Virus record (IMG/VR): IMGVR_UViG_3300006919_014604
Coordinates: 1-21,891 of that record
Length of the DNA: 21,891 nucleotides
Source of the DNA: a virus
Strand: one strand, 5' to 3'
Part shown: positions 5,369 through 17,549 of the stretch, piece after piece
Layout of the letters: every line of letters starts with the position of its first letter
Position numbering within the stretch: position 1 is the stretch's first letter
Notes under the pieces: generated by a model
The model's input: only the letters and a program-made list of their open reading frames with translations
Database searches by the model: none
Told to the model about the DNA's origin: nothing
Translations under genes and position numbers: made by a program

Positions 5369-6670
5369 ATGAGCAAACCAAGATTTGTAATATCATGCCC
5401 TTTTGATACCTACAGTGGGTATGGAGCAAGAGCTAGAGACTTAGTTAAAGCTATTATTGAATTAGATAAATATGAGGTTGAATTAGTTAGCCAAAGATGG
5501 GGGAGTACAAGTTGGGGATTTTGTGAAGATCACCCTGAATGGGAATTTTTGTTAGATTATTCTATACACCCACAAGAAATGGGACAAAAACCACAACCTG
5601 ATATTTGGATGCAAGTTACAATCCCTAATGAATTCCAACCTGTAGGGAAATATAACATAGGATGTACTGCAGGGATCGAATCCACCAGATGCCAACCAGA
5701 TTGGCTTGAAGGAATGAATAAAATGGATATGAATTGGGTTTCTTCTGTCCATGCTAAATCAACTTTTCTTAATACAAAATACGAAAAAACAGAAAAAGAT
5801 ACTAATAAGCCACTTGGAGAATTAAAATTAGAAAAGCCTATTGCTGTGGTATTTGAGGGAGCAGATTTAGATGTATATAAAAAAATCTCCCCAAAAGAAA
5901 TAACAACCATTAATTTGGATGATATTAAAGAAAGTTTTTGTTTTCTAGTTGTAGGGCATTGGATGCAAGGTGATTTTGGTCATGATAGAAAAAATATATC
6001 TTACACTATCAAATCTTTTCTAGAAGTATTTAAAAATTCCCCATCCCCACCAGCTCTTATTTTAAAATGTTCTGTAGGAGTATCGTCTTATATTAGCAGA
6101 GAAGAAATTTTAAATAGAATTAATAGATTAAAAAAATCAGTTAAAGCTAAAAAACTTCCTAATATTTACCTTCTTAATGGAGATTTAACTAACCAGGAAA
6201 TGAATGAGCTTTATAACCATCCTAAAGTAAAAGTAATGACATCTTTAACTAAAGGAGAAGGATTTGGAAGGCCTTTATTAGAATTTTCTCTAACAGGAAA
6301 ACCAATTATGGCTTCTTATTGGTCGGGGCATTTAGACTTTCTACATCCTAGAGCTAATTTATTTGTATCTGGAGAATTAGAATCTGTTCATGAAAGTGCT
6401 GCTAATAAATGGTTAACTAAGGAATCTAAATGGTTTAAACCTAATGATATTGAAGTGGGTAATGCGTGGGATTCTTTATTTAAAAACTATTCTAGAGCTT
6501 CTAAAGAATCTAAAAAACAAATTAAGTATGCCCAAGAAGCTTTTAGTTTTGATGCTATGAAAAATTTAATAGATACTATTTTAGAAGATAACCTACCACA
6601 TTTTCCTAAACAAATAGAATTAAACATACCAAATCAAAAAATTTCTTTACCCCAATTAAAAAAAGTATAA
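5369..6670 (+). CDS. GT-B glycosyltransferase, GT4-like
   Basis: The 433-aa protein starts with FVISCPFDTYSGYGARARDL, the first strand and glycine loop of a GT-B fold. It carries TSLTKGEGFGRPLLEFSLTGKP (about residues 290-311), the donor-binding E-x7-E motif of GT4-type enzymes. A middle segment, GCTAGIESTRC, and the following WVSSVHAKSTFLNT fit the acceptor domain and hinge of this family. It is a soluble cytosolic sugar transferase with unknown donor. It sits between the first glycosyltransferase (5-base gap) and a small unknown gene (1-base gap) and is clearly part of the same transcript. Because GT4 enzymes are diverse, no specific polysaccharide can be assigned. Confidence 0.83.
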   Translation: MSKPRFVISCPFDTYSGYGARARDLVKAIIELDKYEVELVSQRWGSTSWGFCEDHPEWEFLLDYSIHPQEMGQKPQPDIWMQVTIPNEFQPVGKYNIGCTAGIESTRCQPDWLEGMNKMDMNWVSSVHAKSTFLNTKYEKTEKDTNKPLGELKLEKPIAVVFEGADLDVYKKISPKEITTINLDDIKESFCFLVVGHWMQGDFGHDRKNISYTIKSFLEVFKNSPSPPALILKCSVGVSSYISREEILNRINRLKKSVKAKKLPNIYLLNGDLTNQEMNELYNHPKVKVMTSLTKGEGFGRPLLEFSLTGKPIMASYWSGHLDFLHPRANLFVSGELESVHESAANKWLTKESKWFKPNDIEVGNAWDSLFKNYSRASKESKKQIKYAQEAFSFDAMKNLIDTILEDNLPHFPKQIELNIPNQKISLPQLKKV

Positions 6671-6671
6671 T

Positions 6672-7091
6672 ATGAGTTATGATGAAATTATAAACTGCCC
6701 AAAATCAGGGGGTGATTTATGTTATAAAACAGAAGTTACCAAAGATATAACTAATTATATGAGTTTATCTTGTGGGTTTTGGACTAATACCCTAATGAAG
6801 GAAGGTTCTGAATTTTATAAAGAACAATTAGCTGCCTTACCTGAATTATATAAAGACTTAGCTTGGACAGACCCAGAAACTGATTTAATATGGCTTCCTA
6901 ATACAATAAATATAAAAGAGAAGGGAATGGTATTTGCTAATGGTGCTGATAGTAGTGATTGGAAATGGGCTGGAGTTAAGTCTATTGAAGATAAAGAAAA
7001 GGGTTATATAACAGATATGAAAACCCTTAAACATTTTAATGAACGTGATTATATAGAAGCATTATCCTATATTGGAATATTACCAGAATAA
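6672..7091 (+). CDS. Unknown 139-aa cysteine-containing protein inside the glycan cassette
   Basis: I do not recognise a named family. The protein opens with NCPKSGGDLCYKTEV (C9, C17) and then has MSLSCGFWTN (C34). After that comes a Trp-rich region with TDPETDLIWLPNTIN and GADSSDWKWAGVKSI. Three cysteines are fewer than a classical zinc ribbon needs, although one more ligand could come from elsewhere. It lacks signal peptide and membrane segments. It begins one base after a glycosyltransferase and ends three bases before the next one, so it is fully embedded in the cassette. It might be an accessory factor or simply an older phage gene around which glycan genes accumulated. Confidence 0.7.
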   Translation: MSYDEIINCPKSGGDLCYKTEVTKDITNYMSLSCGFWTNTLMKEGSEFYKEQLAALPELYKDLAWTDPETDLIWLPNTINIKEKGMVFANGADSSDWKWAGVKSIEDKEKGYITDMKTLKHFNERDYIEALSYIGILPE

Positions 7092-7094
7092 AAA

Positions 7095-7721
7095 ATGAAA
7101 ATAAGTTACGCTGTTACTGTTTGCAATGAGTTTGTAGAAATACAAACATTAATTAATTTTCTTAGAGAAAATAAAAGACAACAAGATGAAATTGTTATAC
7201 TTTTTGACCAGAAAAATGGAACAGAAGAAATAGCAAATTGGTTAACCAAACTAAATAAATTTCCTAATATTCAATTTTGGAGGGGCTTTTTTGAGGGTCA
7301 TTTTGCTAATTGGAAAAATAAATTAACCGAATATTGTTCTGGGGATTATATTTTTCAAATAGATGCAGATGAAATCCCTAATCAATTATTAATGAATAAT
7401 TTACCTACTATATTAGAATCTAATCCTGATAATGAAGTTTATTTAGTACCTAGAGTAAATATAGTAGATGGATTAACTGAAAGACATATTTTTGAATGGG
7501 GGTGGAGAATAAATGAAAATGAATGGGTTAACTGGCCAGACTACCAGTGGAGAATATGGAAAAACAAACCAGAAATAAAATGGGTTAATAAAGTCCATGA
7601 AAGACTAGATGGTTTTAAAACTTATGCCCCTTTACCTGATATAGAGGATATGGCTCTATATCATCGCAAAACCATAGACAGACAAGAAAAACAAAATGAA
7701 TATTATTCAAAACTACAATGA
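7095..7721 (+). CDS. Family 2-like glycosyltransferase (GT-A fold)
   Basis: The 208-aa protein has the GT2 start KISYAVTVCNEFVEIQTLI (2-20), where a short nucleotide-binding strand is followed by an N-E acidic turn. The metal-binding DxD element appears as QIDADEIP (D90, D92, E93). Downstream come WPDYQWRIWKN and KVHERLDG, a Trp/Arg-rich acceptor region resembling WaaE/LgtF-type small glycosyltransferases, and a terminal YHRKTIDRQEKQNEYY helix. It would use a UDP- or GDP-sugar and Mg/Mn to extend an oligosaccharide in the cytosol. It overlaps the Fcl gene by 4 bases (ATGA), indicating coupled translation. The length is short but complete for this subtype. Confidence 0.85.
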   Translation: MKISYAVTVCNEFVEIQTLINFLRENKRQQDEIVILFDQKNGTEEIANWLTKLNKFPNIQFWRGFFEGHFANWKNKLTEYCSGDYIFQIDADEIPNQLLMNNLPTILESNPDNEVYLVPRVNIVDGLTERHIFEWGWRINENEWVNWPDYQWRIWKNKPEIKWVNKVHERLDGFKTYAPLPDIEDMALYHRKTIDRQEKQNEYYSKLQ

Positions 7722-8608
7722 GAATATTAATTACTGGGGGGAGTGGGTTAGTAGGTAGATATCTTCAAGATATATTACCTGGCCCTAATACTTTTTATAT
7801 GTCTACTAAAGATGGAGATTTAACTGATATTCAATTTGTCAGATGGATGATCTCGTCCTATACCCCGGATGTAGTAATTCATTTGGCTGCTAAAGTAGGA
7901 GGTATAAAAGATAATATATCTAATCCTGTTGGTTATTTTGAAGATAATATTTTAATGAATACTAATATCCTTAAAGTTAGTCATGAATATAAAGTAAAAA
8001 GATTTATAGGAGTTCTTAGCACTTGCATCTATCCAGATAAGTTAGAAAATTATCCTATGAAAGAGGAAGATATGTTTTTAGGTCCTCCTACACCCACAAA
8101 TTTTAGCTATGGGTATGCAAAACGTAGTTTAGCAGTTCAAATAGATGCTTATAACCAACAATACGGGACTAAATACAATTATTTAATCCCCTGTAATTTA
8201 TATGGTGAGTTTGATAATTTTGAAGATGAAAATAAAATGCATTTTATTACAGCCTTACTCCATAAAATTAGAAATGCTAAAGATAATAAGATTGGATTAT
8301 TAGGTACAGGCAAACCATTAAGACAATTTATGTACGCTAAAGATTTTGCTGAAATAATAAAATTGGTTATAGATAATGATATTACAGAAAGCTTCAATGT
8401 TGCCCCTGATTATAACTATTCTATCAAAGAAATGGCTGAAATAGCTATTAATTCAATTAATCCATTACTAAAAATTAATTTTTCTAATCCTGAATTAGAC
8501 GGGCAGTATAGAAAAGATGTAGATAATTCAAAAATGAGAAGTTTAATCCCTAATTTTAAATTTACTCCTTTAGAAGAAGGAATATTAAGAACATATTATA
8601 ATGAGTAA
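7718..8608 (+). CDS. fcl: GDP-L-fucose synthase (GDP-4-keto-6-deoxy-mannose epimerase/reductase)
   Basis: The 296-aa extended SDR has the NADP-binding motif TGGSGLVG (6-13). LAAKVGGIKDN (57-66) follows, then STCIYPD with S101 and C103, LGPPTPTNFSYGYAK with Y131-x3-K135, and IPCNLYGEFDNF. These match GDP-fucose synthase, in which S107, C109, Y136 and K140 of the E. coli enzyme carry out C3/C5 epimerisation and C4 reduction. The product is GDP-L-fucose. The following gene is Gmd, which supplies its substrate, and a GT11 fucosyltransferase lies two genes further on, so the pathway reads as a unit. The alternative is a GDP-colitose synthase (ColC), a close relative, given the 3-dehydrase nearby. 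It overlaps Gmd by 8 bases. At 296 aa it is slightly shorter than the cellular enzyme. Confidence 0.9.
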   Translation: MRILITGGSGLVGRYLQDILPGPNTFYMSTKDGDLTDIQFVRWMISSYTPDVVIHLAAKVGGIKDNISNPVGYFEDNILMNTNILKVSHEYKVKRFIGVLSTCIYPDKLENYPMKEEDMFLGPPTPTNFSYGYAKRSLAVQIDAYNQQYGTKYNYLIPCNLYGEFDNFEDENKMHFITALLHKIRNAKDNKIGLLGTGKPLRQFMYAKDFAEIIKLVIDNDITESFNVAPDYNYSIKEMAEIAINSINPLLKINFSNPELDGQYRKDVDNSKMRSLIPNFKFTPLEEGILRTYYNE

Positions 8609-9572
8609 AGTAGCTTTAATAACAGGTATTAATGGTCAAGACGGATCTTACCTGGCGGAATTCTTAGTGGGAAAAGGATATGAAGTATGGGGTACTGTTA
8701 AAAGAAACTCTGTAGCGGAAAACCAAACTGCTAGAATTGATGATAAAATCTTTAAACAAATAAAACTTGAATATGCGGATTTAAATGATCTATCCTCATT
8801 AATCAGAGTAATCCAATTATCAAACCCAGATGAAATTTATAATTTAGCAGCTCAATCTCATGTTAGAATTAGTTTTGACCAACCAATTTATACAGCTCAA
8901 ACAACCGGTATAGGAACATTAAACCTATTAGAAGCAATAAAACTTACTAACCCTAAAGTTAAAATGTATCAAGCTTCTTCATCTGAAATGTTTGGTAATT
9001 CAATTGATGAAGATGGATTTCAACGAGAAACTACTCCTATGAATCCTGTTTCTCCTTATGGGTGTGCTAAAGTATTTTCTTATAACATTTGTAGAAATTA
9101 TAGAAATTCTTATGGTATGTTTATATCAAATGGAATTTTATTTAATCATGAATCCCCTAGAAGAGGAACAAATTTTGTAACTAATAAAGTAGTTAAAACT
9201 GCAGTTCAAATAAAAAAAGGCTTAAAAAACGAATTAGCATTAGGTAACCTAGAAGCTACTCGTGATTGGGGTCATGCTGAAGATTTTGTTGAGGCAATGT
9301 GGTTAATTTTACAACAAGATACCCCAGATGATTTTGTATGTGCTACGGGTATATCACATTCGGTTAAACAATTATGTAGTTATGTTTTTACTAAATTAGG
9401 GATGGATTATAAAGATTATATAACAATAGATCCTAAATATTTTAGAGCTGAAGAATTAACTGATCTAAAGGGAGATTCTTCTAAACTTAGGTCAATTACT
9501 GGTTGGAAACCTAAACATGATTTTGTATCTTTAATAGATGATATGATATCATACTGGTATAATAAATTATAA
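8601..9572 (+). CDS. gmd: GDP-mannose 4,6-dehydratase
   Basis: The 323-aa protein is a near-textbook Gmd. It has the NADP motif TGINGQDGSYLAE (8-20), GTVKRNS (31-37), the NLAAQSHVRISFDQP segment (81-95), SSSEMFG (126-132) with the active Ser/Glu, and NPVSPYGCAK with Y153-x3-K157. GILFNHESPRRGTNFVTNK (about 178-196) is diagnostic of this family, and the RDWGHAEDFVEAMW motif follows. It converts GDP-mannose to GDP-4-keto-6-deoxy-D-mannose, the branch point to GDP-fucose, colitose, perosamine or rhamnose. GDP-mannose itself must come from the host, because no phosphomannomutase or GDP-mannose pyrophosphorylase lies in the window. It is coupled to Fcl by an 8-base overlap and followed 3 bases later by the RfbH-like gene. 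Confidence 0.96.
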   Translation: MSKVALITGINGQDGSYLAEFLVGKGYEVWGTVKRNSVAENQTARIDDKIFKQIKLEYADLNDLSSLIRVIQLSNPDEIYNLAAQSHVRISFDQPIYTAQTTGIGTLNLLEAIKLTNPKVKMYQASSSEMFGNSIDEDGFQRETTPMNPVSPYGCAKVFSYNICRNYRNSYGMFISNGILFNHESPRRGTNFVTNKVVKTAVQIKKGLKNELALGNLEATRDWGHAEDFVEAMWLILQQDTPDDFVCATGISHSVKQLCSYVFTKLGMDYKDYITIDPKYFRAEELTDLKGDSSKLRSITGWKPKHDFVSLIDDMISYWYNKL

Positions 9573-9575
9573 AAA

Positions 9576-10931
9576 ATGAGTAAATTAAATGATTTTAAAA
9601 AAGGGCTAATTTTAAAATTAGTTACCTCTTACATTAAAGGAAAAAGAAAAAACCAAAAGTGGATCCCTGGAATTGATTGGGTTCAATATTCTGGTCCATA
9701 CTTTGATTCACAAGAGTTTAAAAATGGGGTTGATACCTTATTAGATGAATGGTTTATTTTGGGGGCTAAAGGTAGAGAATTTGAGAGAAAATTTTCTAAA
9801 TTATTAGGCAAAACAGATGGTGTATTAGTTAACTCTGGAAGTTCGGCTAATTTACTTATGTCCACTGTATTAAGAACAAAAAGGGGAGGAAGGTTACCTA
9901 AAGGATCTAAATTTATCACTCCTGTGGTTTGTTTTCCTACTACTATTAATCCTTTAATCCAAAATGGGTTTGAACCTGTTTTTGTAGATGTGGAATTACC
10001 CAACCTAAATCTAAATCTAGATCAGGTAGAATCATTGTTGAAAAAAGATAAAAAGAAAACTATTAAAGGTATTACTTTTGCTCATGTATTAGGTAATCCA
10101 CCTGATATGGATAGATTAATGGGATTAGTTGAAAAATATGATTTAATTTTCTTAGAAGATACTTGTGACGCCCTAGGTAGTACTTGGGATGGAAAACCAT
10201 TAGGTTCTTTTGGTAAAATCTCTACTTGTTCATTCTTCCCAGCTCATCATATGACAATGGGTGAAGGTGGATTTGTAGCTGTAAATGAGCCTATGTTACG
10301 TATGGCTTTAGCTTCATTACGAGATTGGGGAAGAGCCTGTTACTGTAACTCAAATAAACCAGGAAACGTAATTAATGGTACGGCTTGTGGTAGTAGAATA
10401 GCCCCATGGTTTAGAAAACAAAAAGATATAGAATATGACCATAGATATGTTTTTGATGAAATTGGTTATAATTTAAAACCAACTGAAATGCAAGCCGCAA
10501 TGGGTCTAGCCCAATTACCCAAGTTAGAAGAAATGCATGCTAAACGTAAAGTTAATTTTAATAAACTATACGATACATTTAAAAAATATGAAAAGTATGT
10601 TTACCTACCGAAAATGCATGAAAAAGCAGATACTTCTTGGTTTGGTTACTTAGTTACTTTAAAAGATGATGTTCCATTTACTAAAACTGAAATGATTAAC
10701 TTTTTTGAAGAGGCTAAAATCCAAACAAGATCTTACTTTACAGGCAATGCATTATTTCATCCTGCATATGAGGAAATAGCTAAGGATTATAAAGATCCTA
10801 GAAATGAATTTCCAGTAGCTACTAAATCAACAAAAGATACATTTTTCTTAGGTGTTTATCCTGGACTTACAGATGAACAAGTAGAATACATGTGTAATAC
10901 TATTGATGGTTTTTTTTATGGGGTTGAATAA
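9576..10931 (+). CDS. rfbH: RfbH/E1-type sugar 3-dehydrase (PLP/PMP and iron-sulfur, DegT family)
   Basis: The 451-aa protein belongs to the DegT/DnrJ/EryC1/StrS family. At the position of the aminotransferase lysine it has histidine, in SFFPAHHMTMGEGG (219-232, H224). That is the hallmark of C-3 dehydrases (E1/RfbH, ColD) rather than aminotransferases. Cysteines C197, C255 and C257 reproduce the C-x57-C-x1-C spacing of the E1 [2Fe-2S] site, and a fourth, C271, follows after 13 residues rather than the usual 7. E1 removes the 3-hydroxyl from a CDP-4-keto-6-deoxyhexose with an E3 reductase partner; no E3 gene is visible here. Because Gmd lies directly upstream, a GDP-linked substrate is also possible. 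Motifs SGSSANLL (87-94) and LEDTCDALGS (193-202) support PLP binding. It overlaps the next gene by 14 bases. Confidence 0.88.
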   Translation: MSKLNDFKKGLILKLVTSYIKGKRKNQKWIPGIDWVQYSGPYFDSQEFKNGVDTLLDEWFILGAKGREFERKFSKLLGKTDGVLVNSGSSANLLMSTVLRTKRGGRLPKGSKFITPVVCFPTTINPLIQNGFEPVFVDVELPNLNLNLDQVESLLKKDKKKTIKGITFAHVLGNPPDMDRLMGLVEKYDLIFLEDTCDALGSTWDGKPLGSFGKISTCSFFPAHHMTMGEGGFVAVNEPMLRMALASLRDWGRACYCNSNKPGNVINGTACGSRIAPWFRKQKDIEYDHRYVFDEIGYNLKPTEMQAAMGLAQLPKLEEMHAKRKVNFNKLYDTFKKYEKYVYLPKMHEKADTSWFGYLVTLKDDVPFTKTEMINFFEEAKIQTRSYFTGNALFHPAYEEIAKDYKDPRNEFPVATKSTKDTFFLGVYPGLTDEQVEYMCNTIDGFFYGVE

Positions 10932-11772
10932 AACAAATTATATTACGTTTAAAACTATAGGGGAAGCAGGTAATCTTGCTTCCCAAATTCAACAATATGC
11001 GTCTTTATACGCTATTGCCAAAGAAAATAATTTAGAAATTATATTCCCTGAATCTAGCTTAAGTAGAGGATATGGATTTAAATTTGCTAAAGCCTTAGAA
11101 ATTCCTATTATTACCAAAAAAGATGAATTTTTTACTGATTTTATAGATGTAAGACCAAATGATAAGTTATTAGTAGATGAATCTTTATTTAATTTACCTA
11201 AAGGGAACAATTACAACCTTACCTTTAGATTTGATTTATTTCATTATTGGTATCCTAAGTATAAAAATGATATAGATAAATGGAACTGGAACCAAAACCA
11301 TTTAAATTCAGCTTCAAAAATTTATCAAAAAATAAAGATTGAAGGTAAAGAAATGGTTTCTTTACATGTAAGAAGAGGAGATTACTTATTGCCTCAACAT
11401 AATCATTATTGTCAATTGGATACACCATATTATGGTGAAGCTTTAAATTACTTTTTTAGTGAAATAGATAAATATCAATTTGTTATTTTTTCTAACGATA
11501 TAGAATGGTGTAGAGAAAATTTAATTGATGAAAATGAAATAGTTACTTTTATAGACCCCGGGATTGATTATGTTGATTTAGTATTAATGAGTTTATGTGA
11601 CCATAATATTATAGCAAATAGTTCTTATAGTTTATGGGCTGCTTTTAAAAATAAAAATAAACATAAAAAAGTATATTGTCCTACTAATTATTTAAAACCT
11701 TATAGTCCCTGGTCCCACATAAATGGTAATTACTATCCTAAAGAATGGTTTAATATTGATAATAAAGTTTAA
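10918..11772 (+). CDS. Alpha-1,2-fucosyltransferase-like (GT11)
   Basis: The 284-aa protein has the GT11 pattern. It shows a modified N-terminal GNLASQIQQYASLYAIA loop (18-34), SLHVRRGDY (148-156) for GDP binding, FVIFSNDIEWC, then DLVLMSLCDHNIIANSSYSLWAAF, the DXXMMxxCxHxIIANSSFSWW-type motif. These are shared by bacterial alpha-1,2-fucosyltransferases and plant and animal FUT1-like inverting enzymes. It should use GDP-L-fucose, made by Fcl and Gmd encoded just upstream, and add it to a galactose or similar acceptor on a growing glycan. I prefer the ATG at 10918 (14-base overlap with RfbH). An earlier ATG at 10903 would add only five residues. The usual first-loop GRLGNQ is altered to GEAGNL, so acceptor use may differ. 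Confidence 0.9.
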   Translation: MGLNKTNYITFKTIGEAGNLASQIQQYASLYAIAKENNLEIIFPESSLSRGYGFKFAKALEIPIITKKDEFFTDFIDVRPNDKLLVDESLFNLPKGNNYNLTFRFDLFHYWYPKYKNDIDKWNWNQNHLNSASKIYQKIKIEGKEMVSLHVRRGDYLLPQHNHYCQLDTPYYGEALNYFFSEIDKYQFVIFSNDIEWCRENLIDENEIVTFIDPGIDYVDLVLMSLCDHNIIANSSYSLWAAFKNKNKHKKVYCPTNYLKPYSPWSHINGNYYPKEWFNIDNKV

Positions 11773-11774
11773 AT

Positions 11775-12731
11775 ATGAATAAAAAAATAGTATATGTAAC
11801 TGGTTGTTTAGGATTTATAGGTAGTTATGTAACTAGAGCTTGCCTTAAAGCTGGATGGTACGTAAGAGGGGTAGATAAAATGACTTATGCTTCTAATCCT
11901 AATTTATTAGATGAATTTTTAGATTATTCTAATTTTACATTTGAAGAAAAAGATATCAATGATTTAGAATTTTTATATGAATGTGATTATATAATTAATA
12001 GTGCTGCCGAAACTCATGTAGGTAACTCTATTATTAAAAATGAAGAATTTTTACATTCTAATATAAACGGAGTTCATCATCTCCTTGAATTGATCAAAAA
12101 TTACAGAGCAGAAGGGAAATCGAAACCCACTTTACTCCATTTTTCAACCGATGAGGTATATGGAGACATAACAGAAGGAGAACATATTGAAACTGATACA
12201 TTAAAACCTTCTAACCCATACTCAGCAACCAAGGCAGCAGCTGATATGTTAGTTATGGCTTGGGGTAGAACTTATAATATTCCTTATATTATCATCAGAC
12301 CTACTAACAATTATGGTGTGGGCCAATATGTAGAAAAGCTAATCCCTAAATCAATTAAATATCTTAAATTAGGGAAAAAAATCCCACTTCATAATAATGG
12401 AACCCCTATTCGCAATTGGCTACATGCTGCCGATACAGCAGAAGCAGTAATGACTATTATTGAAAAAGGGACACAGAATGAAATTTATAATATTTGTGGA
12501 GGATTTGAACAATCTAATTTGGATACTGTAGTTAAGCTTATTAAATTATATTATGGTAAAAAAGTTAATGTAAAAGATTATCTGGATTTATCCTTTTCTA
12601 GACAAGGACAAGATGTTAGATATGCCCTAAATGATAACAAATTAAGAGACTTAGGATGGGAACCTAAATCGATATTTGATAAAGAACTACCCCACATTAT
12701 AACTTATTACATAAATAATTTTATATGGTAA
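11775..12731 (+). CDS. NAD-dependent nucleotide-sugar 4,6-dehydratase, RmlB-like
   Basis: The 318-aa extended SDR has TGCLGFIG (9-16), AAETHVGNSI (77-86), FSTDEVYGD with T125-D126-E127, and NPYSATKAAAD with Y149-x3-K153. It also has RPTNNYGVGQYVEKLIP and GTPIRNWLHAADTAEA. These match dTDP-glucose 4,6-dehydratase (RmlB) and its close relatives, where Thr-Asp-Glu plus Tyr and Lys form the catalytic site. The reaction is oxidation at C4, loss of water across C5-C6 and re-reduction, giving a 4-keto-6-deoxy sugar. The nucleotide (dTDP, CDP, UDP) cannot be read with certainty. No RmlA, RmlC or RmlD partner is present in the window, so the gene may supply the RfbH/ThDP branch instead of rhamnose. 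It starts 2 bases after the fucosyltransferase and overlaps the ThDP enzyme by 7 bases. Confidence 0.88.
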   Translation: MNKKIVYVTGCLGFIGSYVTRACLKAGWYVRGVDKMTYASNPNLLDEFLDYSNFTFEEKDINDLEFLYECDYIINSAAETHVGNSIIKNEEFLHSNINGVHHLLELIKNYRAEGKSKPTLLHFSTDEVYGDITEGEHIETDTLKPSNPYSATKAAADMLVMAWGRTYNIPYIIIRPTNNYGVGQYVEKLIPKSIKYLKLGKKIPLHNNGTPIRNWLHAADTAEAVMTIIEKGTQNEIYNICGGFEQSNLDTVVKLIKLYYGKKVNVKDYLDLSFSRQGQDVRYALNDNKLRDLGWEPKSIFDKELPHIITYYINNFIW

Positions 12732-14509
12732 ATAAAAAGAAAGTTTTAGAATGTCTTATAGATTATCTCGTTTACAACAAAATTGATACTTTTTTCTTAG
12801 TAACTGGTGGAGCAATTGCCCCAACAGTGGATTATATTGGAAGAAAAAAAGGAATAAAATATTATTGTTTCCAACATGAACAATCTGCAGCAATGGCCGC
12901 CGAAAGTTACTATCGAACATCCGGTAAAATGGGTGTAGTATTAAGTACTAGTGGTCCTGGGGCTCAAAATTTACTGAATGGGATTTGTGGGTGTTGGTAT
13001 GAGTCTATTCCTTGTTTATTCATAACAGGGCAAGTTAGTACTTATGAATCTTTAGATTCAATATTCACCCAACCTCGTCAAGTAGGATTCCAAGAAATGC
13101 CCGTTGCTGAATCCTTTAAACATTTTACTAAATTTTCATCTAAAGTTTCTAAAGCGGAGTTATTTGAGGATACTTTGAAAACTGCTATTAATAAATGTTT
13201 TGAAAATCGTCCTGGTCCTAGCTTAATTGATTTACCTTTAGATATTCAAAATTCAACTTTAGAATATTTTACATTTGATTCTTTTGAAGAAGTTAAAATA
13301 CAACCTAATTTAAACAATGAAATTAATATTATATTAAATAAATTAGAAAAAAGTAAAAGACCATTATTACTTTTAGGACAAGGGATTAAATTAGGAAAAG
13401 CTGGGGATGAGATTAAAAGTTTAGTAGAAAAATTACAAATTCCATTTGTAGTCTCTTGGGGTGGGTTTGATATTTTACCCCATGACCATCCTTTATTTAT
13501 AGGAGATATTGGAGTGTATGGTAGTAGAGGAGGTAATTTTGCAGTCCAAAATTGTGACTTACTTATTTCAATAGGATCTAGATTAGATACTAGACAAACT
13601 GGGGGTGATTTGTCTACATTTTCAAGAGATTCATATAAAATAATGGTTGATATAGATGCTAATGAGGTTTATAAAGATAGAGGATTAAAGATCGATTTAC
13701 CCATAGTAAGTGATTCTAAATGGTTTATTTTAAATTTATTAGATAGGGTTGAAGAAGTACAATTACATGATGATTGGTTTAAATATATTGACCAATATAA
13801 AAACTATAAAGAAATACGCCCATTAAAAAATAATATTTTAACTTCATATGAATTTTTAGAAGAATTAAACCAACACATCCCTAATAATGCTACCATAATC
13901 CCAGATGAGGGAGGAAATTTAGTTTGGTCAATGCAATCTATTAAAATTAAAGGTACACAAAAAATATATTCTAATTTTGGAAATTCATCCATGGGTTATG
14001 GTTTACCTTCCGCTATTGGAGCTGCTATTGCAAATAAAGGACCTGTAATTTGTATTGATGGTGATGGAGGATTTCAGATGAATTTGCAGGAATTACAAAC
14101 TGTGAAACATTATAATTTACCCATCAAAATATTCATTATGAATAATAATTGTTATGGCATTATAAAACAATTCCAAGATTCATACTTTGGTTCTAGGTAT
14201 ACTGCTACTGATAATAAAGATTATTCTGCCCCAGATTTTGTTAAAGTAGCTGAAGCATTTGGAATCAAAGCTGTACGGGCTACTAAAGAAAACTATAAGG
14301 AAGTAATTAATTTGGCTATGCAAGAAGAAGGTAGTATATTAGTAGATGTTATAATAGATAAGGAACAGAAGTTATTACCTAAATTAGAATTTGGTAATCC
14401 TTTAGAAGATATGTCCCCCTATTTAAAGGATGAAGAAATTGAAAATAATATGGTAATTGATATGATCCCTAGAAGAGATAATTCTCAGGGGTGGGTAACT
14501 TTAAAATAA
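12725..14509 (+). CDS. Thiamine-diphosphate-dependent enzyme, acetolactate-synthase-like (possible YerE-type sugar enzyme)
   Basis: At 594 aa it has the full three-domain ThDP layout. The N-terminal Pyr domain holds the catalytic glutamate in QHEQSAAMAAE (E52), followed by STSGPGAQNLLNG and LFITGQVSTYESLD. A central domain follows, then the PP domain with GDGGFQMNLQELQ and FIMNNNCYG (near residues 444-475), the GDG-NN magnesium/ThDP motif. Acetolactate synthases, pyruvate oxidases and YerE-type enzymes share this core. YerE transfers an acetyl unit from pyruvate onto CDP-3,6-dideoxy-4-keto-glucose to make branched yersiniose, downstream of an E1 dehydrase like the RfbH here. The C-terminal KLEFGNPLEDMSPYL tail is one I associate with ThDP proteins of surface-polysaccharide loci. 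Alternatively it could make acetolactate toward pantothenate, since PanB is the next gene. A 28-base AT-only gap follows. Confidence 0.8.
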   Translation: MVNKKKVLECLIDYLVYNKIDTFFLVTGGAIAPTVDYIGRKKGIKYYCFQHEQSAAMAAESYYRTSGKMGVVLSTSGPGAQNLLNGICGCWYESIPCLFITGQVSTYESLDSIFTQPRQVGFQEMPVAESFKHFTKFSSKVSKAELFEDTLKTAINKCFENRPGPSLIDLPLDIQNSTLEYFTFDSFEEVKIQPNLNNEINIILNKLEKSKRPLLLLGQGIKLGKAGDEIKSLVEKLQIPFVVSWGGFDILPHDHPLFIGDIGVYGSRGGNFAVQNCDLLISIGSRLDTRQTGGDLSTFSRDSYKIMVDIDANEVYKDRGLKIDLPIVSDSKWFILNLLDRVEEVQLHDDWFKYIDQYKNYKEIRPLKNNILTSYEFLEELNQHIPNNATIIPDEGGNLVWSMQSIKIKGTQKIYSNFGNSSMGYGLPSAIGAAIANKGPVICIDGDGGFQMNLQELQTVKHYNLPIKIFIMNNNCYGIIKQFQDSYFGSRYTATDNKDYSAPDFVKVAEAFGIKAVRATKENYKEVINLAMQEEGSILVDVIIDKEQKLLPKLEFGNPLEDMSPYLKDEEIENNMVIDMIPRRDNSQGWVTLK

Positions 14510-14537
14510 ATAAAAATTAATATAAAAATTAAAAATT

Positions 14538-15473
14538 ATGCCAGCAGATAGTAAAACGAAAAAAACTATTCTAACTTTAAACAAAAATAAAAAAGAAGGA
14601 GTCACATCAGTAATGGTAACTGCCTATGATTACCCTCAGTCAAGAATAGCGGATGCTTCTGGGGTTGATTGTATTCTAGTAGGTGATTCATTGGGAATGA
14701 CTACATTAGGGTATAAAACAACAATCCCTGTAACCATGGATGATATGATTAGACACTGTGAAGCAGTAAGTAGGGGAGCAGATGATGCTTTACTAATTGG
14801 GGATATGCCCTATATGTCATACCAACCTTCAAACCAAGTAGCAATTGAAAATGCAGGTAGATTTATTACTGCAGGGATGGATATGGTTAAAGTAGAGGGA
14901 GCCCAAACTGATAGGATTAAAGCAATTTGCGATTCAGGAATAATGGTGATGAGCCATTTAGGTTTAACACCACATACTAGAGCTAAATTAGGTGGTTATA
15001 AAGTACAAGGTAAAACCGCTAAACAAGCGGAAGTAGTATTAAAACAAGCTTTACAATTACAAGAAGCGGGATGTTCTGCTTTATTGCTAGAAGCAATGCC
15101 CAAAGAACCAGCAGGTATGATCGCTAAAGAATTAGATATCCCAGTATTTGGTATTGGTGGCGGAAATGAGGTAGATGGTCAATTAGTTATATTCCATGAT
15201 TTGATGGGATTATTTTGGGAATTTAAGTCTAAATTTGTAAAAAGATATTGCGAAGCAGGACAAATAATGACTGATGCTCTTAAAGATTATGTCCATGAAG
15301 TTAGAGAAGGAATCTTTCCTGCTGAAGAAAACTTTTATGAAATTAAGGATGAAGAATTGGAAAAGTTATTGGGTGATAAAAAATGGAAATATGAATTAGA
15401 TAGAGATTATTATAATAATCCCAACCATAGCGCTACCCCAATTACGCAAAATAAAACAGTTATTAAACGTTGA
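14538..15473 (+). CDS. panB: Ketopantoate hydroxymethyltransferase (PanB family)
   Basis: The 311-aa protein is a clear PanB. It has MVTAYDYPQ (26-34), ILVGDSLGM with metal ligand D50, IGDMPYMSY with D89, GMDMVKVEGA with K118 and E120, HLGLTPHT (140-147), GGYKVQGKT (152-160), and LLLEAMPKE with the catalytic E185. The family transfers a hydroxymethyl group from methylene-tetrahydrofolate to 2-ketoisovalerate, giving ketopantoate for pantothenate and coenzyme A. PanB is typically about 260-280 residues; the extra length is in a C-terminal tail. It lies inside a sugar cassette and is the only gene there not obviously linked to glycans. It could be an auxiliary metabolic gene boosting CoA, or a repurposed aldolase adding a one-carbon branch to a keto sugar or acid. 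It shares its TGA with the next start (TTGA overlap). Confidence 0.93.
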   Translation: MPADSKTKKTILTLNKNKKEGVTSVMVTAYDYPQSRIADASGVDCILVGDSLGMTTLGYKTTIPVTMDDMIRHCEAVSRGADDALLIGDMPYMSYQPSNQVAIENAGRFITAGMDMVKVEGAQTDRIKAICDSGIMVMSHLGLTPHTRAKLGGYKVQGKTAKQAEVVLKQALQLQEAGCSALLLEAMPKEPAGMIAKELDIPVFGIGGGNEVDGQLVIFHDLMGLFWEFKSKFVKRYCEAGQIMTDALKDYVHEVREGIFPAEENFYEIKDEELEKLLGDKKWKYELDRDYYNNPNHSATPITQNKTVIKR

Positions 15474-16231
15474 AAATTCTAATTACAGGAGGAAATGGTT
15501 ACATAGCTCGTAGCTTAATAAATAAACTTACGGGCTATGAAATTACCTCTATCACTAGATCAGATTTTGATTTATCAAATAGAGAAGCTACTAATAATTG
15601 GTTTCAAGATAAATATTTTGATGTAGTATTACATACTGCTATATTAGGTGGAAGTAGATTAAAACAAGATGATGAAAAAGTATTTTTTCAAAATTTATCT
15701 ATGTTTTATAATTTATTATACAACCAAGATAAATTTAACCAATTAATTAGTTTTGGTTCGGGGGCTGAGCTTGGTTATCCTATTGATCCTTATGGTCTAA
15801 GTAAAAATATAATACGTAGAATAGTCCAAAATGAACCTAAATTTAATAATATAAGAATATTTGGGGTGTTTGATGAAAATGAATTAGATACTAGATTTAT
15901 CAAAGCAAATATTAAAAAATATAAAAATAAAGAATCTTTGGTTATCCATCAAAATAAGTTTATGGATTTTATTTATATGGATGATTTAGTTTCTTTAGTA
16001 AAATATGTTATAGAAAATCCTAAGGTAAAAGAAATTGATAGTTGTTATTCTCAACCTTACACTTTACTAAGTATAGCCCACTTAATCAATAACCTTTCAG
16101 ATTATAAATGTGCCATTAAAATAGAAAACCCCAAAATGGGTGAACCGTATGTGGGAAAGATACAAAATTTAGATTTACCCTTAATAGGATTAGAAAAAGC
16201 AATAAAACAAGTTTATGATAAAACCCATTAG
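15470..16231 (+). CDS. Short extended-SDR nucleotide-sugar epimerase/reductase
   Basis: The 253-aa protein begins KILITGGNGYIARSL, an NAD(P)-binding motif in which the third glycine is alanine (TGGNGYIA, 6-13). It keeps a Ser segment SFGSGAE (94-100) and DPYGLSK with Y108-x3-K112, so catalysis is plausible. It is shorter than typical epimerases (about 300-340 aa) and has a reduced C-terminal substrate lobe, which suggests a small or linear keto-sugar reductase role. The start is TTG at 15470, overlapping the PanB stop by 4 bases; no ATG precedes the conserved strand. By position it could reduce the product of the ThDP enzyme, as YerF does in yersiniose synthesis, but this is inference. It overlaps the following glycosyltransferase by 17 bases. 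Confidence 0.8.
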   Translation: MKILITGGNGYIARSLINKLTGYEITSITRSDFDLSNREATNNWFQDKYFDVVLHTAILGGSRLKQDDEKVFFQNLSMFYNLLYNQDKFNQLISFGSGAELGYPIDPYGLSKNIIRRIVQNEPKFNNIRIFGVFDENELDTRFIKANIKKYKNKESLVIHQNKFMDFIYMDDLVSLVKYVIENPKVKEIDSCYSQPYTLLSIAHLINNLSDYKCAIKIENPKMGEPYVGKIQNLDLPLIGLEKAIKQVYDKTH

Positions 16232-17549
16232 TTTCTGCATTACTGCTTGTAATAATGAAAAACATTATGTATTAGGGCTACTAGATAGCTTAGTAGTTAA
16301 TACTGAATATGAAAAGCATGAAGTATTAATCTTAATAGATTCTGATAATCAAAATCAATATGAAGCTTTTCTAGATTATAAAAAATTAAACCCAAAACTA
16401 GATCTTAAAATTTATAAAAATGAGGGTGATAGAATAGGATATCAAAGAAATATTTCTATTTTATTTTCACATGCTAAAAATGATATAGTTGTCTACCTAC
16501 AAGCTGATATGGTTGCTGGAAATAAATTTGACCATTACTTCTTAGAAGCCTTAAATGAAAATAAAAATGCTATAATTACTATAGCCAGAATAGAACCCCC
16601 AGTACATCCAGAATCACCTGAAAAAATTACTAAAAGTTTTGGTTTAACACCTGATGAATTTAAATGGGATGAATTCATGGAGTTTTCTAAGGAATTACAA
16701 AAAGAAAATAGACCTATGATTTGGGGTCATTTTGCCCCATTTGGAATGTATAAGGAAACTTATTTTAAAACATTAGGTGGTTTTGATACAAGATTTAGAT
16801 GCTCAAGAGAAGATTCTGATTTTATTATTAGAATAGGAGCAACTAAATTAGATGCTTTAGAAACTTGGAATGCCCATGTTTATCATTATACTTGTGTTTC
16901 TTCAAGGGGAGCAGGTTGGTATAAAAAAGACGATGAACAAATTGAAATAAATAATGAATGGCAATCTTTAGCTGATCGAGAAGAATTAAAACGCTTTATT
17001 AGAAAATGGGGATTCTTTGGCCACCATTACCAACCCCAGTATAATTCATCTTTAATTATTAACATTGATAGTGTACCTAATTTTTATATATTAGAATTTA
17101 TTGAACCTTATTTTAATAAAATAATAATTAATGATAAACATGTTTTAGATGAACTGTGTAGAAAAGTAAACTTTAATTATTACTATTATAGTAATCATAG
17201 GTGGAATTATGATAATGATAAATGGAATGAAGTAAAACATAGGTTTAATGAAAGTAATAAATTAAGTGATAAATTTATTTTATTAGAGGATTATGATAAT
17301 AGTGATGATATTGTTATTGCAACTAATATGAGTAAATTAGTTAAGGATTTTAAAACACCTTCTGTTAACCAATTTATAACACAATCTAATCAAATTTTTT
17401 CTAATTTAGTTAATGGGGAAGATGATCCTAAAGGAAAATATAATATAGGATGTTTTGATATTGAAGTTAATAATTTAGTTGATATTAACCAAAGTCATAT
17501 AGAAGGTTCGCAATATTTATTTGATACTAGTGAATTTATGTTTAAATAG
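16215..17549 (+). CDS. Family 2 glycosyltransferase with long C-terminal extension (last gene of cassette)
   Basis: The 444-aa protein has a GT-A GT2 domain. It shows ISFCITACNNEKHYVLGLLDSL (5-26), IDSDNQN (41-47), the donor/metal element VVYLQADMV (92-100, QAD in place of DxD), and GGFDTRFRCSREDSDFIIR (about 188-206), the GGFDE..ED type catalytic region. After about residue 265 comes a second region rich in Asn, Tyr and Asp that does not look like a known domain. It could bind an acceptor. It would transfer one sugar of the glycan assembled by this cassette. It overlaps the SDR gene by 17 bases, and its stop (TAG 17547-17549) is followed directly by a promoter for the next operon. Confidence 0.85.
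   Translation: MIKPISFCITACNNEKHYVLGLLDSLVVNTEYEKHEVLILIDSDNQNQYEAFLDYKKLNPKLDLKIYKNEGDRIGYQRNISILFSHAKNDIVVYLQADMVAGNKFDHYFLEALNENKNAIITIARIEPPVHPESPEKITKSFGLTPDEFKWDEFMEFSKELQKENRPMIWGHFAPFGMYKETYFKTLGGFDTRFRCSREDSDFIIRIGATKLDALETWNAHVYHYTCVSSRGAGWYKKDDEQIEINNEWQSLADREELKRFIRKWGFFGHHYQPQYNSSLIINIDSVPNFYILEFIEPYFNKIIINDKHVLDELCRKVNFNYYYYSNHRWNYDNDKWNEVKHRFNESNKLSDKFILLEDYDNSDDIVIATNMSKLVKDFKTPSVNQFITQSNQIFSNLVNGEDDPKGKYNIGCFDIEVNNLVDINQSHIEGSQYLFDTSEFMFK

Follow-up and report, generated by a model that had tools for sequence, protein, structure and literature searches.

Gene content of the locus

The window analysed in this study is the whole 21,891-nucleotide stretch of IMG/VR virus record IMGVR_UViG_3300006919_014604 (positions 1 to 21,891), a viral contig fragment of 21.9 kb. 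Clamp-loader genes at 477–1406 (phrog_168, 258 bits) and 1637–2047 identify the phage as T4-like. The fragment carries a glycan block (7718–17549) whose genes are all intact open reading frames (ORFs) on the + strand, tightly packed, with most of them overlapping or nearly so (Table 1). In this block, an RmlB-type dehydratase gene is followed by genes for a thiamine diphosphate (ThDP) enzyme, for PanB, an enzyme of vitamin B5 synthesis, and for a short-chain dehydrogenase/reductase (SDR). Chance cannot account for the gene arrangement, since dozens of independent viral contigs contain runs of the same genes. Judging from their sequences, the genes probably specify a pathway of the YerE type that leads to a 3,6-dideoxyhexose branched at C-4, in which the donor comes from PanB and its decarboxylated acyl unit is added by the ThDP enzyme.

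An initial annotation of this DNA had proposed a yersiniose-like pathway at 9576–16231, with an E1/RfbH enzyme, a 4,6-dehydratase, a YerE-like ThDP enzyme and a small SDR. The genes that it named in this range are all present as intact + strand ORFs, and the list was incomplete in that the PanB and glycosyltransferase family 11 (GT11) genes within the range had been overlooked. The Gmd gene, to which it also referred, lies just outside the range.

Table 1. Genes of the glycan block, and two donor-enzyme genes from the related phage locus L188
Assigned identity	Position	Strand	Support
Fcl/GDP-fucose synthase-like SDR	7718–8608	+	NF047922 174 bits, far under cut-off 500
Gmd-like GDP-mannose 4,6-dehydratase	8601–9572	+	TIGR01472 387 bits, cut-off 415
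E1/RfbH-type pyridoxal phosphate (PLP)-dependent 3-dehydratase	9576–10931	+	NCBIfam RfbH 442 bits, cut-off 423
GT11 glycosyltransferase (fucosyltransferase family)	10903–11772	+	PF01531 E=3e-26
RmlB-type NDP-glucose 4,6-dehydratase, probably dTDP	11775–12731	+	TIGR01181 303 bits, under cut-off 365
YerE/JanthE-like ThDP lyase, putative branch-forming carboligase	12725–14509	+	PDB matches, tree, Foldseek
PanB-type hydroxymethyltransferase, proposed donor-acid synthase	14538–15473	+	PF02548 E=2e-97; TIGR00222 278 bits, cut-off 208
SDR, RmlD/GDP-fucose synthase fold, proposed branch-ketone reductase	15470–16231	+	PF01370, PF04321
Glycosyltransferase family 2 (GT2) protein, 3′ of SDR	16215–17549	+	PF00535 E=1.5e-11
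L188 acetylating acetaldehyde dehydrogenase			TIGR03215 328 bits, cut-off 282
L188 4-hydroxy-2-oxovalerate aldolase			TIGR03217 338 bits, cut-off 286

The ThDP enzyme and its linked 3-dehydratase

The ThDP enzyme has the three-domain architecture of ThDP decarboxylases (PF02776, PF00205 and PF02775), and it carries both the glutamate of the HEQ motif (HEQSAA) and the cofactor motif GDGGFQMN...NN. Its best PDB match is 8rph (328 bits), followed by 5ahk (301 bits), which we take to be PpYerE, the entry titled acetohydroxyacid synthase of Pseudomonas protegens, and by acetolactate synthases with 241 bits or less. The 8rph protein is named as JanthE in PMC12188165, and JanthE is the top-scoring reference for every full-length phage ThDP protein of our set. 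In an IQ-TREE phylogeny from which the long-branched catabolic and oxidase outgroups were left out, the window protein falls inside the JanthE clade with support of 100/99, and an approximately unbiased (AU) test rejects the tree that joins it to the acetolactate synthases (p=0.0021). An identity as acetolactate synthase, the placement that would have spoken against the initial annotation, is thus rejected by the tree and the AU test, and the YerE-like assignment stands. In a Foldseek search with the AlphaFold model (predicted local distance difference test score, pLDDT, 85.5), the six top matches are all JanthE chains. At the JanthE hot-spot residues, whose numbering here is one higher than in the JanthE paper, the window enzyme fully matches neither JanthE nor acetolactate synthase. 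The best NCBIfam model is that of acetolactate synthase, with a score (400 bits) under the cut-off of 538, and no ORF resembling the regulatory subunit IlvN was found beside the ThDP gene among the window ORFs.

The ThDP gene is linked to the E1 gene for C-3 deoxygenation, and this linkage recurs in related phage and bacterial clusters. Residues 12–447 of the window E1/RfbH protein align with the Yersinia E1 structure (PDB 3bcx, 326 bits). The catalytic histidine and all four iron–sulfur cluster cysteines of E1 are matched, within the motifs PAHH and CYC...C, in agreement with the initial annotation, which had noted a histidine in place of the PLP-binding lysine together with the E1 cysteines. 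The protein is therefore of E1 type rather than ColD type, because it passes the RfbH cut-off and aligns at these five residues. ColD itself is about 390 aa long and has no iron–sulfur cysteines; the window protein has 451 aa and four aligned cysteines, and scores 326 bits to E1 versus 171 to ColD-type chains. Elsewhere, in loci L003–L006, L014 and L040 (L numbers denote the loci of our set), a histidine-type enzyme of 380–387 aa without the cysteines ('SFYASHVITAGG') stands in place of E1 and is thus ColD-like; it would carry out the same step. A histidine-type 3-dehydratase, either E1-like or ColD-like, is present in most clusters of group A.

JanthE-like ThDP enzymes also occur as split proteins. 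In L061 (8013–9020 and 9017–9763), as in L054–L060 and L062–L064, the enzyme is encoded by two overlapping genes of about 335 and 250 aa. These genes represent five distinct viral loci, mostly beside E1 and RmlB, with no PanB.

PanB and its pairing with the ThDP gene

The PanB gene is located directly 3′ of the ThDP gene. Residues that align with the known catalytic residues of E. coli PanB are retained in the window protein (D50, S51, D89, K118, E120, H140 and E185). A first scan of viral contigs for the window PanB yielded 42 loci and a second one 53, all with at least 71% identity. A second PanB lineage occupies the equivalent place in the operon (L195, L225), and with it the number of distinct loci comes to 49. 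The second lineage, as in L195:4237–5172, is about 45–46% identical to the window PanB and has an insertion of about 27 residues. Because loci were sampled by scans for particular genes, counts given here are not frequencies.

A ThDP gene adjoins PanB in all 49 distinct viral loci of this PanB kind, with none lacking it, and PanB stands before or after the ThDP gene depending on the locus. PanB proteins of one clade are paired with three ThDP lineages, and on the PanB tree the partner type must have changed 12 times, against a possible minimum of two; PanB appears to have changed its ThDP partner repeatedly. One of the loci also encodes a 509 aa B12-binding radical S-adenosylmethionine (SAM) protein directly before PanB (L028:6468–7997), in a cluster of group C with no E1 or RmlB nearby.

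Outside these viral contigs, a pattern scan of GTDB species genomes, which can miss relatives, returned nothing above about 50% full-length identity as a bacterial home for this PanB clade. Plasmids yielded only ordinary acetolactate synthases, and in isolate phages the matches to acetolactate synthase or PanB were all distant, many of them in unannotated bacterial-looking records. Several PanB genes per region, some as adjacent pairs, are found in Sporomusa genomes (L072 and L075 from Sporomusa ovata, L081 and L074 from S. silvacetica). The literature searched contained no report of PanB with YerE-like enzymes, nor of either gene in a phage or O-antigen cluster, although an earlier report may exist.

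PanB hydroxymethylates 2-oxo acids at the beta carbon, which yields 4-hydroxy-2-oxo acids. The products of PanB are therefore of the donor type preferred by the YerE-like enzyme ErwE, which refuses pyruvate and prefers 4-hydroxy-2-oxobutanoate, -pentanoate and -hexanoate (PMC12247030). JanthE likewise accepts 4-hydroxy-2-oxovalerate (PMC12188165).

An exchangeable slot in related phage clusters

A scan of viral contigs with E1 recovered clusters with the same genes as the window on either side of a variable segment, which lies between RmlB and the SDR. The window has the order RmlB-ThDP-PanB-SDR, whereas L188 and its relatives have RmlB-ThDP-acetaldehyde dehydrogenase-4-hydroxy-2-oxovalerate aldolase-SDR. 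L188 is 70% identical to the window in E1, 61% in GT11, 64% in RmlB and 53% in the SDR. A scan with the L188 aldolase gave 39 loci, 29 of them distinct and with the dehydrogenase, nearly all having RmlB and the ThDP gene before and the SDR after. PanB is thus replaced in its slot by another system that forms a 4-hydroxy-2-oxo acid. The donor role of PanB is supported most strongly by this exchange, because PanB and the dehydrogenase–aldolase pair take the same place next to ThDP enzymes of one kind.

Other genes occur beside the ThDP gene or in its place. A NeuB-like gene adjoins the ThDP gene in L216, and a gene resembling AroB (3-dehydroquinate synthase; TIGR04425, under its cut-off) adjoins a YerE-like ThDP gene in L192:11544–12560 and L208:2442–3458. 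Two-gene transketolases were found in 11 distinct loci and two-gene E1-type pairs in 10, several of them in the exchangeable slot itself (e.g. L186, L217). The transketolase proteins measure about 205 and 158 aa, as in L186:7463–8077 and 8074–8550, and also occur in L185, L187, L189, L193, L194, L198, L199 and L215. In the literature, split-gene transketolases and alpha-keto acid dehydrogenase pairs have been proposed or shown to branch keto sugars (PMC12247030). One cluster that carries ThDP-PanB also has a two-gene E1-type ThDP pair (L015:5018–5644 and 5654–6190), and some phages such as this may install two different branches.

On balance, we lean towards a more general model in which aquatic phages carry a modular factory for branched sugars. 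It would combine a fixed core (RmlB, an E1 or ColD-like 3-dehydratase, and the SDR) with an exchangeable ThDP/donor-enzyme slot that holds PanB, acetaldehyde dehydrogenase plus aldolase, a NeuB-like or AroB-like enzyme, or a transketolase or E1 split into two genes. A different cassette would mean a different sugar on the host, and PanB would be the folate-dependent donor synthase for a type of branch unreported in any sugar.

Similar arrangements exist in bacteria. The JanthE/YerE-like genes of Desulfobacterota and Chloroflexota genomes are near E1-type genes in most cases examined. In L124, which also has E1, the ThDP gene adjoins acetaldehyde dehydrogenase and a DmpG-type aldolase, and in L126 and L127 E1 and the ThDP gene accompany NeuB-like synthases; as read from gene content, these three clusters show the same donor-enzyme logic. 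None of the bacterial clusters examined contains PanB.

Proposed pathway and nucleotide carrier

In the pathway that we propose, RmlB would form a nucleoside diphosphate (NDP)-4-keto-6-deoxyglucose, probably with deoxythymidine diphosphate (dTDP) as carrier, from which E1/RfbH would remove the C-3 hydroxyl to give a 4-keto-3,6-dideoxy sugar. PanB would hydroxymethylate a 2-oxo acid with methylene-tetrahydrofolate to a 4-hydroxy-2-oxo acid, namely ketopantoate if the substrate is 2-oxoisovalerate or 4-hydroxy-2-oxobutanoate if it is pyruvate. Decarboxylation of this acid by the ThDP enzyme and addition of the resulting acyl unit at the C-4 ketone would leave a tertiary alcohol that bears a hydroxy-acyl branch. 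The branch ketone would probably then be reduced by the SDR, and the neighbouring glycosyltransferases would put the branched sugar on a host surface glycan.

Several observations bear on the carrier. The best PDB matches of the window RmlB-type protein are dTDP-glucose 4,6-dehydratases. The motif STDEVYGD is present in this protein and in 74 of 74 distinct related phage dehydratases, where the dehydratases of bacterial clusters carry TSDKCYEN. Profile searches of the window ORFs recognised no cytidine diphosphate (CDP)-glucose genes, including the cytidylyltransferase RfbF. In addition, many related ThDP-PanB clusters lack Gmd, and RmlB usually stays beside the ThDP gene. For these reasons dTDP is favoured as the carrier of the branched sugar, with CDP and guanosine diphosphate (GDP) less likely. 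The initial annotation had taken Gmd as a pointer to GDP and had noted that classical yersiniose uses CDP. The first of these is set aside, as it is RmlB and not Gmd that accompanies the ThDP gene, and the second finds no counterpart among the genes recognised in the window. The most plausible assignment for Gmd, the Fcl-like gene and GT11 is to a separate, parallel GDP-fucose branch.

The SDR contains the motifs GGNGYIA and YGLSK, and its AlphaFold model (pLDDT 95) has GDP-L-fucose synthase as its first Foldseek match. The fold is that of sugar-nucleotide reductases and epimerases, so that a function like that of YerF, as was suggested initially, is plausible. The SDR is found in many clusters and accompanies several cassette types, which fits the reduction of a product common to all. 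The GT2 place directly after the SDR is also seen in many of the clusters with acetaldehyde dehydrogenase and 4-hydroxy-2-oxovalerate aldolase. Upstream, between glycosyltransferase genes, lies a gene for a 139 aa protein with no family assigned (6672–7091), whose place is kept in many related contigs at 24–67% identity.

Alternative explanations

Some findings weigh against a PanB-fed, YerE-type pathway. Fold alone cannot separate a YerE-like enzyme from an acetolactate synthase, because the VIA-align Z values of the window model are tied (46.2 for JanthE versus 45.7 for acetolactate synthase). Where JanthE has P293, the window enzyme retains the acceptor-site arginine found in acetolactate synthases (DTRQTG), as does PpYerE. 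In group-C loci (L020, L023, L026–L028 and others), PanB-ThDP occurs without a nearby 3-dehydratase or RmlB; the pair must therefore also serve another acceptor there, and is not tied to 3,6-dideoxy acceptors everywhere. PanB could supply ketopantoate for something else. Finally, an E3 reductase is not recognisable among the examined ORFs of the 21.9 kb fragment, a gap that the initial annotation had already recognised and for which no window gene can be taken as a substitute; the E3 gene may be elsewhere in the phage genome or be encoded by the host.

A classical yersiniose-type branch is an unlikely alternative. The ThDP enzyme would use pyruvate to add a C2 branch, and PanB would act otherwise, for example in a later hydroxymethylation of the acetyl branch or on another cluster product. 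Consistent with this, the window enzyme and PpYerE have active-site letters in common, and L118 is a YerE-E1-SDR cluster with RfbF, an RfbG-type dehydratase (TSDKCYEN) and no donor enzyme. However, the strict adjacency of PanB and the ThDP gene, together with the replacement of PanB by an enzyme pair known to make 4-hydroxy-2-oxopentanoate, favours a donor role for PanB.

We give little credence to a metabolic boost, whereby the ThDP enzyme would be an acetolactate synthase, PanB would make ketopantoate, and the phage would raise host synthesis of branched-chain amino acids and pantothenate (coenzyme A, CoA). PanB does pass the cut-offs of its family, the best NCBIfam model of the ThDP protein is the one named above, and 2-oxoisovalerate is common to both pathways. 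Against this, no IlvN, IlvC, IlvD, PanC or PanE was recognised in the window, a clade with acetolactate synthases is rejected, and the PanB-ThDP pair lies within a sugar cluster in which PanB is swapped for an aldolase system. A phage with a true pantothenate association, the Microcystis phage MaAM05, which served as a control, has panB near panC and no annotated ThDP partner.

The least probable explanation involves no carbon branch: PanB and the ThDP enzyme would together produce a free hydroxylated ketone or acyl group, which would then decorate an amino sugar or glycan as a substituent. It draws on group-C loci that combine PanB-ThDP with radical SAM and other DegT-family genes, but no acyltransferase or CoA ligase was recognised beside the pair in the window, and E1, a dehydratase and a YerE-like enzyme form the known logic for C-branching.

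If the PanB-fed branching pathway is correct, a vitamin B5 enzyme has been recruited to make donors for C-branched sugars as its dedicated role, one not found in the literature searched. The exchange of donor cassettes within one fixed pathway would give phages a concrete mechanism for fast change of the host surface sugar, and with it of receptor identity and superinfection immunity. The clusters would also be a rich natural source of candidate ThDP enzymes that accept ketones, each paired with its donor-making enzyme, which would be useful for making chiral tertiary alcohols.

Comparison with known systems

The window PanB has the family and catalytic residues of E. coli PanB (1m3u), but is only 40% identical, has about 45 additional C-terminal residues, and is paired with a ThDP carboligase instead of panC. 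The split-gene transketolases of the miharamycin and amipurimycin clusters are two-gene enzymes proposed to branch a keto sugar, and similar pairs sit in the same slot of related phages; the window itself has no such gene, and the candidates listed in PMC12247030 are from Streptomyces. JanthE of Janthinobacterium sp. HH01 (8rph/8rpi/8rpj) is the closest solved structure by sequence and the first by fold search, and has the C-terminal PLED-SP motif in common with the window enzyme. However, the two are only 33–34% identical, with a CDG cofactor motif in JanthE versus GDG in the window, and they differ at P293 and Y297.

At the level of pathways, the yersiniose A system of Yersinia pseudotuberculosis (E1 plus YerE) has a 4,6-dehydratase, E1, a YerE-like carboligase and an SDR alongside, as in the window. 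It differs in using a CDP carrier and a pyruvate donor, whereas the window has an RmlB-type dehydratase, an additional PanB and no CDP-glucose genes. Thus, the initially proposed yersiniose-like logic holds for the YerE-type step and for those covered by E1, the dehydratase and the SDR, but the product is probably not yersiniose itself, as PanB indicates a 4-hydroxy-2-oxo acid donor instead of pyruvate. Although ErwE was reported with CDP-4-keto-3,6-dideoxyglucose, and PMC12247030 mentions neither PanB nor phages, the erwiniose system of Pectobacterium atrosepticum resembles our proposal for the window in that a YerE-like enzyme uses 4-hydroxy-2-oxo acid donors to branch a 4-keto-3,6-dideoxy sugar.

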